DNA of 64,000 nucleotides, taken from NCBI GenBank assembly GCA_017427385.1, contig JAFRSW010000001.1, forward strand, positions 17,762-81,761. The letters are read 5' to 3'. Within the stretch, counting starts at the first letter, position 1. Each line of letters begins with the position of its first letter. The notes beneath the pieces were generated by a model. That model saw only the letters and a program-made list of their open reading frames with translations, made no database searches and was not told where the DNA came from. A program made the position numbers and the translations under genes. This document shows, one piece after another, positions 39,471 to 41,945 of this stretch. The stretch is from Bacteroidales bacterium (GTDB lineage Bacteria > Bacteroidota > Bacteroidia > Bacteroidales > UBA932).

Positions 39471-40412
39471 TTATTTACCATACGCGGCAGGAGCGACTCC
39501 AAAGTACTCCTTGAATGCGCTGGAAAAATAGGAGGCTGAAGAAAAGCCGCATCTGGAAGCGATCTCGCTGATGCTTGCAGATCCCTCCTTCAGCATTCCG
39601 GCAGCAAGATCCATCCTCATCTTTTTGATAATATCAGATGGGGATGGACTGTTTTCTGCCTTAAGCTTGCGGTTCAGATGCACGCGGCTCATGCCGAGGG
39701 CGGCAGCCACATCTTCCACTCCGAAGTCCGGATTTGTGAAGTTTGCCTTTATGATTTCCAGCACTTTGGCGGCAAACTCACCGTCGCTTACGCGCGGGCG
39801 GGATTCCTCCGGCTTTTCTGCCGGCGCGGTTGTTTTGGCAAGACGCGGGCTGATTTCAGCCGGTTTTTCTGCCGGCGCGGCTGATTTGGCTGGAACAACG
39901 GGGTCCGGAAGAGGCGAGGTAACAGCTTTGTCAGCAATTGGCTGCGTTGCGGGAACGGCAGGTGATTTTGTAACATTGCGCCTGTTCCTGAGAAATTGCC
40001 AGATGAACAAAGCAAAGAACAGAATCGCAAGTGCCGGCATCCACCACGAGCCATACCAAGGGCGCTGGAGCGGCTCCAGAGCAGGCTTCTCCACAACGGT
40101 TTCTTCTTTTGTAACAGGTGCAGACAGGGCATCAGCCACACTTTGAGGCAGCCCGGTCTGCTTTACAAAACCGGAAAAAGAGGTGTAAGAATAAACGGCG
40201 CCTTCTGCGTCTTTTATCCATAGAACACCCTCATTATCAAAGGATAGGGCAACAACATTGTTGCATGCAAAGTCCCCCTTTTCGACTGAGTAATTGAAAG
40301 CTTTGCCATTCTTCCCCACCCGCACGAGCCCGCGGGCGGAAGTTGCAATCCACATTGAGCTGTCTGCAGGGCTGACAGTTGTGGCATTTACTGATTGCGT
40401 TTCTGTTACCAT
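39471..40412 (-). CDS. Membrane-bound AraC-family regulator with short propeller-like N-terminus
   Basis: The product has 313 residues. The N-terminal part (about 1-80) has two Reg_prop-like repeats (MWIATSARGLVRV and GVLWIKDAEGAVYSY) as in hybrid two-component sensors. One TM helix follows (123-141), then a Pro/Ala/Lys linker with repeated PAEKPAEISPRLAK-like units, and a C-terminal AraC HTH (about 215-313, with SRVHLNRKLKAEN and SEIASRCGFSSASYFSSAFKEYFG). No histidine kinase or receiver domain is present, and no signal peptide is visible. ATG 40412 lies 4 nt after a TATTTTTG box. A candidate small RNA is transcribed divergently from it. Confidence 0.8.
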   Translation of the reverse strand: MVTETQSVNATTVSPADSSMWIATSARGLVRVGKNGKAFNYSVEKGDFACNNVVALSFDNEGVLWIKDAEGAVYSYTSFSGFVKQTGLPQSVADALSAPVTKEETVVEKPALEPLQRPWYGSWWMPALAILFFALFIWQFLRNRRNVTKSPAVPATQPIADKAVTSPLPDPVVPAKSAAPAEKPAEISPRLAKTTAPAEKPEESRPRVSDGEFAAKVLEIIKANFTNPDFGVEDVAAALGMSRVHLNRKLKAENSPSPSDIIKKMRMDLAAGMLKEGSASISEIASRCGFSSASYFSSAFKEYFGVAPAAYGK

Positions 40413-40416
40413 GTTA

Positions 40417-40424
40417 CAAAAATA
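40417..40424 (-). promoter_or_regulatory. -7 box of the AraC-type regulator
   Basis: TATTTTTG on the minus strand, 4 nt from ATG 40412; predicts a leaderless mRNA. Confidence 0.5.
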
Positions 40425-40499
40425 AATTATTATTTTCAAAAACGCAAGATGCCGGGCAAATCATTACCCATCCCACAGAGCGCCAGCAATACGACTGGT

Positions 40500-40530
40500 T
40501 TTGTGGTTTAGATAATAATTGCTACCTTTG
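40500..40530 (+). promoter_or_regulatory. Consensus promoter of a small RNA
   Basis: TTTG (40500-40503), a 19-nt spacer and TACCTTTG (40523-40530). This exactly matches the Bacteroidetes -33/-7 consensus, with no open reading frame downstream. Confidence 0.75.
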
Positions 40531-40535
40531 TGACG

Positions 40536-40670
40536 AGATAATAAAACGTGGTACGGATGAGGTAATTCGCTAAGTGCAAAGTCCCCGCCTCGAGCCTCAC
40601 CGAAAGGTAAACATCCACCACGTAGTCTTGGGGCAAAATTAACAGGAGATCATTTGGCCTCCTGCTTTTT
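40536..40670 (+). ncRNA. Candidate structured small RNA of about 135 nt
   Basis: The RNA lies between a consensus promoter and an intrinsic terminator and has no plausible ORF. The closing stem is ACGTGGT (40546-40552) with ACCACGT (40617-40623), extended after a 2-nt bulge by GGATG (40555-40559) with CATCC (40612-40616). Inside, TGAGG (40558-40562) can alternatively pair with CCTCA (40595-40599), and ACC-GAAA-GGT (40599-40608) makes a GNRA-capped hairpin. The mostly unpaired middle contains TGCAAAGTCCCC (40575-40586), a perfect 12-nt complement to the mRNA of the neighbouring AraC-type regulator. I do not recognise a known RNA family; it does not show SRP, 6S, tmRNA or RNase P signatures. 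Confidence 0.65.
40643..40670 (+). terminator. Terminator of the small RNA
   Basis: CAGGAG (40643-40648) and CTCCTG (40659-40664) with a 10-nt loop, followed by CTTTTTT. It overlaps the last codons of the convergent membrane-protein gene. Confidence 0.8.
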
Positions 40671-41429
40671 TAGAAACTCCTCCTTGACATCTTTCGAAAA
40701 TGTATCTGGCCCTGCGGCGCCACCACGAAACATGAAGGCCACATGGTCGTTATAAGGAATCAGGTGATAGTCGGACAGTGCTTCCTGACGTTGTTCGTCA
40801 TTCATCGGGGATAAATAAACCCTATATAAATACATCCCCATCCCAACACGCTTGTATCCAATATTGCAATACTCAGGGAAATGTGTTTCAATCCGTATGC
40901 ATCCTATGTCCTTAAGTTTTTTCTTTATAGATTGAAGCTCTTCTTCATCCAGGCCCACCTCACTCATTAACACTGTTTTAAGTGAATCAGAAACGTTCCA
41001 ACCACCATTTTTAGCCGTGTGGAATGACGTCACTTTGCCATGCCCAAATTCGAGCAACATAGTCTGCCCTTCATTTAAAGCGGCTTGGGTAAAAGCCACC
41101 AATTCTTCTATTCCCGCTCCTTGTTTTTCATAATGCCTGGCCATTTTATCCGGATTGCATTTCTTGGCAGGTACCGTGAGAAGCAGAAACCCCAGAATAG
41201 CAACTACAATAACACCGGTATAAATAGAAATCGCTGTTTTATGGGATCCTCCTATCACCACCAGACTACGGAGAATGGCGACTATGGCCCAAATAACCAT
41301 TGCCACTACAAACCACCGCAATAACAGTAGCAACCACATGCCCGCATATGGTTGCAGATACAGGAGCAGCAGAAATATGGCCAATACTGATAACGGAATA
41401 TAATGCCACCAGTAATGATCGATCTTCAT
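40650..41429 (-). CDS. Hypothetical membrane protein, AT-rich gene
   Basis: The product has 259 residues. Three hydrophobic helices are predicted in the N-terminal third (about 10-30, 33-55, 65-88), followed by a soluble domain of about 165 residues with helices and mixed strands (LDEEELQSIKKKLKDIGC, YKRVGMGMYLYRVYLS). No family is recognised. I use ATG 41429 because a TATCTTTG box (41457-41464) overlaps the upstream in-frame ATG. The gene is more AT-rich than its neighbours and lies between a small RNA and a palindrome array, so it may be part of an acquired island. Confidence 0.7.
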   Translation of the reverse strand: MKIDHYWWHYIPLSVLAIFLLLLYLQPYAGMWLLLLLRWFVVAMVIWAIVAILRSLVVIGGSHKTAISIYTGVIVVAILGFLLLTVPAKKCNPDKMARHYEKQGAGIEELVAFTQAALNEGQTMLLEFGHGKVTSFHTAKNGGWNVSDSLKTVLMSEVGLDEEELQSIKKKLKDIGCIRIETHFPEYCNIGYKRVGMGMYLYRVYLSPMNDEQRQEALSDYHLIPYNDHVAFMFRGGAAGPDTFSKDVKEEFLKKQEAK

Positions 41430-41456
41430 AACAGGATTATTTCTTTGGTTTCCAAA

Positions 41457-41464
41457 CAAAGATA
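41457..41464 (-). promoter_or_regulatory. -7 box of the membrane-protein gene
   Basis: TATCTTTG on the minus strand, 27 nt before ATG 41429. Confidence 0.5.
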
Positions 41465-41583
41465 CTACTTTTTCCCAGAAAACGATGCGAATGCTGGTCC
41501 GCGCCGGGTAAGGTCCAATTTCATGCCGGGGACCTTACCGGCATTTCGGCCTCCCAGGCACTTCCAGCGGGTAAGGCAACGCA

Positions 41584-41672
41584 TTTCATCCACAAAATAG
41601 CCCCCAAAATGTGGATGAAAGGCCAAAAACCATCACTTCATCCACAAATAACGGCCTAAAACGTGGCTGAAG
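41584..41672. repeat. Two tandem 37-bp palindromes
   Basis: Unit 1 (41584-41620) is TTTCATCCACA, 15 nt, TGTGGATGAAA, a perfect 11-bp inverted repeat. Unit 2 (41636-41672) is CTTCATCCACA, 15 nt, CGTGGCTGAAG, with two mismatches. Period 52 nt. They resemble repetitive extragenic palindromes. Confidence 0.8.
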
Positions 41673-41694
41673 AGCGGCCCGAGAGGAGATGCAG

Positions 41695-41873
41695 GGCTCT
41701 CTGAGCCGTCAGGCGAACCGCCGAAGGCACGCCTCAGCGTGCCCGGCGATGCGGGTATTTTGCCAGGGCAAAATACGGGAGCAAGGAGCCGCGGGGGTTT
41801 TGGGGGCAGGGCCCCCACAGAAGGACATTAGGGGCAGAGCCCCTAATAGGACAATCGGGCGGCACAGCCGCCC
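41695..41873. repeat. Array of six different short-loop palindromes
   Basis: In order: GGCTC-TCT-GAGCC (41695-41707), GGCG-AAC-CGCC (41712-41722), GGCACGC-CTCA-GCGTGCC (41726-41743), TATTTTGCC-AG-GGCAAAATA (41756-41775), TGGGGGC-AGG-GCCCCCA (41801-41817) and ATTAGGGGC-AGA-GCCCCTAAT (41827-41847). A seventh, GGGCGGC-ACA-GCCGCCC, lies at 41857-41873. Loops are 2-4 nt and all stems are perfect, but the stem sequences differ. No coding sequence is supported here. Confidence 0.8.
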
Positions 41874-41874
41874 A

Positions 41875-41945
41875 GATTCCTGTAGAGGCGTTAAACGAAA
41901 ATGCCAGCCGCTTGGCTGGCAATTTTCGTAGCCTCTACAGGAATC
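41875..41945. repeat. 71-bp palindrome carrying an inverted copy of the tRNA-Arg 3' end
   Basis: GATTCCTGTAGAGGC (41875-41889) is the exact inverted copy of 41931-41945, which belongs to the T arm and acceptor stem of tRNA-Arg. The terminator palindrome (41895-41929) sits between the arms. Confidence 0.85.
41895..41929 (-). terminator. Terminator after the rpmF-tRNA-Arg operon
   Basis: TGCCAGCC and GGCTGGCA with loop AAGC, flanked by ACGAAAA and TTTTCGT, a nearly perfect 35-bp palindrome. It starts at the tRNA 3' end and could work in both directions. Confidence 0.85.

Follow-up and report, generated by a model that had tools for sequence, protein, structure and literature searches.

A dispersed family of pseudoknotted RNAs facing LPD3 protein genes in gut Bacteroidales, with a possible role as RNA antitoxins

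In the DUF3800 RNA motifs of Rfam (e.g., RF03075, DUF3800-VIII), several unrelated RNA folds accompany one protein family. An RNase H fold is predicted for the DUF3800 protein in the relevant passage of PMC10910872. In type III toxin-antitoxin systems (ToxIN, CptIN, TenpIN, AbiQ), a pseudoknotted RNA is likewise combined with an RNase-like protein; the passages of PMC5086642 on these systems place RNA repeats upstream of the toxin gene in one operon, with a terminator between them, and relate that related toxins have related RNAs. The AbiF RNA of C. difficile (RCd22) is described, in the corresponding section of PMC12373285, as neutralising an RNase-fold toxin by direct binding in cis or in trans. 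LPD3 (PF18798) is a domain of phage and conjugative-element polyvalent proteins, for which the LPD3 passages of PMC5512222 mention no RNA partner; none is named in the passages of the open-access literature that were searched. Here, we describe an RNA gene of a Bacteroidales bacterium, located at positions 40532-40671 of the forward strand in a 64,000-nt stretch of contig JAFRSW010000001.1 (assembly GCA_017427385.1; hereafter the window, with the source genome called the own genome). Its relatives form a dispersed RNA family, many members of which lie convergent with genes encoding LPD3-domain proteins. On the comparative sequence evidence given below, we regard both the family and its pairing with LPD3 as virtually certain.

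A preliminary description of this region, made from its sequence alone, had proposed an independent small RNA of about 135 nt. The Bacteroidales-type promoter that it named was found at 40500-40530 (+), comprising TTTG (40500-40503), a 19-nt spacer, and TACCTTTG (40523-40530); when both strands of the 64 kb were scanned, the exact form TTTG-N19-TACCTTTG occurred only at this position. The structured core, the region matched by our covariance models, spans 40532-40641 (+) and scored 113.0 bits with model R1 and 114.6 bits with model R2, scores that include its own seed, the window copy being a seed member of both. The intrinsic terminator also described previously (CAGGAG...CTCCTG followed by a T-run; 40643-40671, +) ends at about 40671. 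Both parts of the nested closing stem (ACGTGGT/ACCACGT, 7 bp, plus GGATG/CATCC, 5 bp) were present, as was the proposed GNRA hairpin, ACC-GAAA-GGT (P3; 40599-40608, +). Within the core, helix P1 pairs CGTG (40547-40550) with 40619-40622, P1b pairs GGA (40555-40557) with 40614-40616, and P2 pairs GAGG (40559-40562) with CCTC (40595-40598), all on the forward strand. A pseudoknot, overlooked at first together with the partner protein, joins CCCC within the P2 loop (40583-40586, +) to GGGG just 3' of P1 (40630-40633, +). The assertion that the region holds no open reading frame was too strong: two mechanically called frames cross it (40379-40573, +; 40508-40636, -), and we take them as chance because it is a folded RNA that the conservation reflects. 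The downstream gene (40650-41459, -), encoding a 269-aa protein with apparent membrane segments, is convergent to the RNA and its stop codon falls within the RNA's terminator, which agrees with the proposal of an independent gene, as do a promoter and a terminator kept in most copies of the family.

The preliminary description had also called for an Rfam search and for an examination of the stems in relatives. No family of Rfam 15 matched the window at the gathering threshold, and at E<=10 there was one chance match only, at 40356-40377, outside the RNA. The DUF3800 RNA motif models gave no match at the window, nor is the neighbour protein a DUF3800 protein; an Rfam scan of 13 loci with diverse relatives returned just two tRNAs at E<=0.1. 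No tandem repeats were found at 40400-40800. The stems proved to be conserved in relatives with strong covariation, as set out next, and the proposal came through this check. These results support an independent structured small-RNA gene outside the known families.

When the window RNA was folded alone, its stability was no better than chance (z -0.86; 33 of 200 shuffles were equally good); the evidence for structure is covariation. RNA copies were dereplicated ahead of the counts. In a model-fitted alignment of 106 copies (104 distinct; A8, which includes both L057 and L151 and leaves out the truncated or odd copies L071, L078, L079, and L094), 91.7% of cells were paired, compared with 78.1% in shuffles; two-sided changes were seen at 16 of 18 pairs, and sliding the partners by 1-3 columns left 32-67% paired. 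An unfitted MAFFT alignment (A9; 95 of 101 dereplicated copies, without the same four and without L045 and L064) gave 85.2% versus 75.0% in shuffles and 33-51% in slid versions, with two-sided changes at 14 of 18 pairs, a number reached by 4 of 500 shuffles. P1 showed two-sided changes at 3 of 4 pairs (cells paired, 97.6% fitted and 87.9% unfitted), and P1b (3 of 3 pairs) and P2 (4 of 4) showed them throughout in both alignments. P3 was the weakest helix of the family (74.0% and 61.5%). P1, P1b, and P2 are firm, and P3 is weak.

The pseudoknot is absent from the search model; its cells were nevertheless paired at 98.5% (fitted) and 97.3% (unfitted). Among the 106 rows, the arms read CCCC/GGGG in 89. 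Compensated forms were CCTC/GAGG (5 rows, of which two come from a single locus), CTCC/GGAG (1), and CCCT/AGGG (1), while CTCC/GGGG and CCTC/GGGG (1 row each) pair via G-U; the arms were mismatched or offset in the alignment as CCCC/GGGA (2 rows), CCCG/GGGC (1), or gapped (5). This pattern argues that the RNA forms a pseudoknot. In copies without a facing gene, the knot was paired at 98.8% (21 rows), compared with 97.1% in the others (85 rows), among which some gene-less rows (e.g., L033) were tallied. The RNA is a single unit in the alignments, without antitoxin-style tandem repeats.

Copies of the RNA are dispersed. DNA searches recovered others, some of them fragmentary, from the own genome (contigs C17 and C10) and from 4 of 40 relatives. 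Of 300 genus genomes, 84 were positive with a covariance model built from five copies (35 of the 118 better genomes), at 1-4 matches per positive genome; the matches listed sum to 114, and a later scan of the loci adds some. Across the order, a second covariance model was positive in 6 of 393 genomes, namely the own genome and five from other families; each of these five has an LPD3-like frame facing the RNA (by eye), diverged in L180 and split over two frames in L181. Both flanks were available for 99 dereplicated copies, of which 76 carry a TAnnTTTG box within 20 nt before the RNA (0.7% at random positions of the same loci) and 87 are followed by a terminator-like hairpin with a T-run (5% at random positions).

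The partner is a protein of about 135-250 aa with a C-terminal LPD3 domain, often with an N-terminal Xre-type helix-turn-helix (HTH). A protein-only search of the GTDB species collection yielded 240 LPD3 relatives, and the best 80 were examined, a match to the RNA model being counted if it was convergent and within 250 nt. By this rule the RNA was convergent with the LPD3 gene in 72 of the best 80 loci, 28-103 nt past the gene match. As for the other eight, the contig ends 2-111 nt past the gene in four, a related but shorter RNA with the knot CCGC/GCGG is seen by eye in L156 and L172, L129 is truncated, and L146 has no RNA there. The facing gene ends, in many loci, in ...KVQYCITA(I/L) or a near variant, and LPD3 stop codons lie inside or adjoin the RNA's terminator. 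The record titles of these 80 name Bacteroidales, Bacteroidia, Bacteroidaceae, Prevotella(ceae), or Colivivens in 79 cases and Lachnospiraceae in one, and the source is herbivore gut wherever a title names one. The converse count was made on 94 RNA copies in the genus (four matches repeating others, in L033 and L092, were left out): 36 face a full-length LPD3 match, 12 a partial one, and 42 none, with 4 unjudgeable; for 7 of the 42, an LPD3 match lies somewhere else within 3 kb. The dependence is one-sided, the LPD3 genes examined having the RNA and the RNA often lacking LPD3. Because many contigs are shared (e.g., by L047 and L099), the RNA-first and protein-first sets are two views of one population. 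LPD3 relatives were found neither in viral contigs nor, with one query each, in plasmids or phages. In a class-wide sample, the LPD3 profile at E<=1e-10 matched 1 of 296 genomes, the own genome, and so is rare outside the group. One junction in the own genome is chimaeric: on contig C10 (L098:3470-4000), a gene for a DNA/RNA non-specific endonuclease continues into the final 28 positions of LPD3 before the RNA.

When six partner proteins were scanned against Pfam, only LPD3 and HTH families were found. Five of the six scored 14.9-25.4 against PF18798, below its gathering cut-off of 27, and one had no LPD3 match; two members of a second subfamily (see below), both also matched by the first-subfamily profile, scored 30.5 and 40.6 against the same cut-off. 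By profile and predicted fold, the domain would be the same as the LPD3 of polyvalent proteins. An HTH fold was found in the N-terminal part of the long form. Because a whole-protein fold search was filled by HTH matches, the LPD3 domain was predicted alone, and the resulting model weakly resembles RelE/BrnT-like RNase toxins. The fold alignments covered 65 and 52 of the 80 loci; R13 and T129, candidates for the His or Arg of the N-terminal helix and the Ser or Thr of the last strand expected in a BECR-fold ribonuclease, were invariant across the 52 aligned rows, as were 24 other residues. A sequence search of solved structures with the LPD3 protein profile returned nothing.

The two partners have also diverged together. 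For the co-divergence test, 70 of the 72 pairs were usable, 69 with promoter. LPD3-domain distances correlated with RNA distances at r 0.79 (n 69), and at 0.69 given the separating terminator, whereas LPD3 and terminator were unrelated given the RNA (partial r 0.04). In HTH-bearing proteins (n 38), LPD3 correlated with the RNA at 0.85 and with its own HTH at 0.42; HTH versus RNA given LPD3 was 0.45. We treat co-divergence as support, not proof, because linkage and shared descent contribute.

Upstream of the HTH-bearing genes, the palindrome GTAAT-N8-ATTAC was found over the -7 box in 38 of 40 cases exactly and in 40 of 40 with at most one mismatch. It occurred in 1 of 39 other genes, in 1 of 37 and 0 of 33 RNA promoters, in 6 of 1600 stretches taken at random from the same loci (the sites themselves may be among them), and in 0 of 840 shuffled promoters. 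The sole "short" gene with an exact palindrome, L131, does carry an HTH, and after its reassignment the exact palindrome stood before 39 of 41 genes with and 0 of 38 without HTH; the scan of "short" genes covered the 140 nt preceding the match rather than those preceding the true start. The pattern holds with an 8-nt spacer alone and not with 6, 7, 9, or 10 nt. Given a palindrome at the HTH genes and its rarity at RNA promoters, the HTH-LPD3 protein is probably a repressor of its own gene and, in most cases, not of the RNA.

A different RNA accompanies more distant LPD3 proteins. On contig C12 of the own genome, another LPD3 gene is faced by a different promoter-RNA-terminator unit, whose structured RNA (L200:1890-2060, -; also L202-L216) is unrelated to the window RNA. 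RNAalifold gave three stems for it, and one locus shows GGGG/CCCC changed to GAGG/CCTC (by eye); Rfam had no match on it in four loci. Relatives were found in 37 of 200 genus genomes at E<=0.001, most of the weaker ones short, and in 22 at E<=1e-8. The fetched loci gave 18 rows of longer copies, 16 of them distinct because L209 duplicates two from L090. The more distant LPD3 subfamily faces 11 of the 16 (partial in L204), L203 has an LPD3 match about 460 nt off on the other side, and 4 have none. One array (L090:1687-3981, genome G184, contig C95) holds two LPD3 genes, each facing the second RNA, with window-type RNA copies beyond the 5' ends of both. In L211 (2241-3117), a DUF3800-like gene (17.8 bits, cut-off 21) and an Rfam DUF3800-VIII RNA lie in convergent orientation beside an LPD3 module, a matching layout with a different RNase-like protein.

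Set beside the systems described above, the module shares with type III the combination of a pseudoknotted RNA and a protein that is, here by prediction, RNase-like. It differs in having a single RNA unit instead of repeats, in the convergent position of the RNA (72 of 80 loci) with a promoter of its own (box in 76 of 99 copies) rather than upstream in one operon, and in the LPD3 protein, often HTH-fused, in place of a ToxN/CptN/TenpN toxin, a family that the Pfam scan did not find in the six partners. Because these three defining features fail, we do not file the module under type III, although its action would be alike. AbiF likewise has an RNA gene adjoining that of an RNase-fold protein, but the protein there is Abi_2 with HEPN similarity, the RNA lies before the gene, and two abiF motifs occur, according to the same section of PMC12373285, whereas the window RNA matches no Rfam family. 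The DUF3800 motifs resemble it in convergent layout, as in L211, and differ in both protein and RNA.

Four observations together suggest an RNA antitoxin: the dependence is one-sided, the fold is like that of toxins, the protein probably represses itself, and the classes are matched. We lean somewhat towards the RNA being a type-III-like antitoxin of an RNase-fold toxin of the RelE/BrnT type (BECR). The full module would consist of an LPD3 protein, BECR-like and often carrying an HTH, and a convergent, separately promoted knotted RNA with a core of about 110 nt. The folded RNA would bind the LPD3 domain and hold the RNase inactive, while the HTH form would repress its own promoter through GTAAT-N8-ATTAC over the -7 box. 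The RNA may stay in excess, since most of its promoters lack the palindrome proposed to repress the HTH gene. Should its supply drop, through loss of the module or phage shut-off of host transcription, the RNase would be released. A gene-less copy, such as that in the window, might then be an antitoxin that has been kept and could give protection from modules of the same class. The broader proposal, for which we put the chances a little short of even, is that a new class of RNA-controlled toxin is established by the LPD3 proteins of gut Bacteroidales: a BECR-fold RNase, with or without a self-repressing HTH, kept inactive by a convergent folded RNA. Two LPD3 subfamilies would be served by no fewer than two unrelated RNA folds, the pseudoknot and the three-stem form, and orphan RNAs would act as resistance genes.

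The linkage and co-divergence data would also fit if the RNA were instead a required cofactor or guide, forming with LPD3 a ribonucleoprotein (a defence effector, an RNA-processing enzyme, or an HTH-linked regulator) that is active only when joined. The DUF3800-VIII unit of L211 offers another RNase-like protein beside an RNA, and gene-less RNAs, which keep their fold, could act in trans with a distant protein. Yet 42 of 90 RNA copies face no gene, and the RNA accompanies 72 of the 80 LPD3 genes examined, an imbalance more in keeping with protection than with a cofactor, and no variable guide-like segment is seen in the alignment (by eye); we consider a cofactor unlikely, though worth keeping in view. 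The gene-less copies could also be MITE-like, the RNA-like sequence serving mainly as the recognition end of mobile DNA that the LPD3 protein moves. Dispersal at 1-4 matches in each of the 84 positive genomes of 300, tandem copies and arrays, and chimaeric neighbours would suit such an element, but compensatory changes that include the pseudoknot, a promoter and a terminator kept in most copies, and the lack of any transposase or integrase family among the Pfam matches of the six proteins make it very improbable. We give slightly less credence still to a type-I-like antisense RNA, which would pair with the toxin mRNA, 3' end to 3' end, across the terminator that the two share. The genes do meet, with LPD3 stops inside or next to that terminator; the conserved, covarying part, however, is the core and not the overlap, the terminator does not follow LPD3 once the RNA is accounted for, and antisense pairing has no need of a pseudoknot.

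Within this family, the window RNA (40532-40671) is most likely an orphan copy of the dispersed, possibly mobile, two-gene module. It is 95.5% identical to the RNA facing a full-length HTH-LPD3 gene in L105, and no LPD3 match lies within 3 kb of it. The convergent 269-aa protein was considered as a partner and rejected: it has no LPD3 match, and its three closest relatives (53-58% identity, 300 genus genomes) have no RNA in the stretches fetched. This copy, taken by itself, might be a relic of a lost module without present function, as suggested by the missing LPD3 gene, by an unrelated neighbour gene whose relatives lack the RNA, and by a terminator that, with the neighbour's last codons, resembles those of another RNA class (by eye). 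Its promoter, helices, knot, and terminator are all intact, however, and its close match in L105 faces a full-length gene; a relic is thus a substantial possibility but the less probable one.

Other RNA copies stand in varied surroundings. Two tandem window-type RNAs of different sequence classes lie about 233 nt apart in L044 (2563-2907), each with promoter and terminator and neither facing an LPD3 gene. Remnant copies stand beside a TIR-like protein in L003 and beside the apparent end of an AbiEii-type nucleotidyltransferase in L004 (both named by eye). Farther along the window (41580-41880), the interval that separates the neighbour gene from a tRNA gene holds G+C-rich text resembling stem-loops, together with repeated words like CATCCACAAA; similar text is found near L007, and it looks by eye like an interspersed repeat.

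If the proposed reading is true, RNA antitoxins would reach beyond ToxN-like and AbiF-like toxins to the RelE/BrnT fold, and LPD3, a domain of phage and conjugative-element proteins, would gain a function. There would also be a testable reason for several unrelated RNA folds serving one protein family. Since over a quarter of the genus genomes sampled contain the RNA, the idea is open to ordinary genetics.
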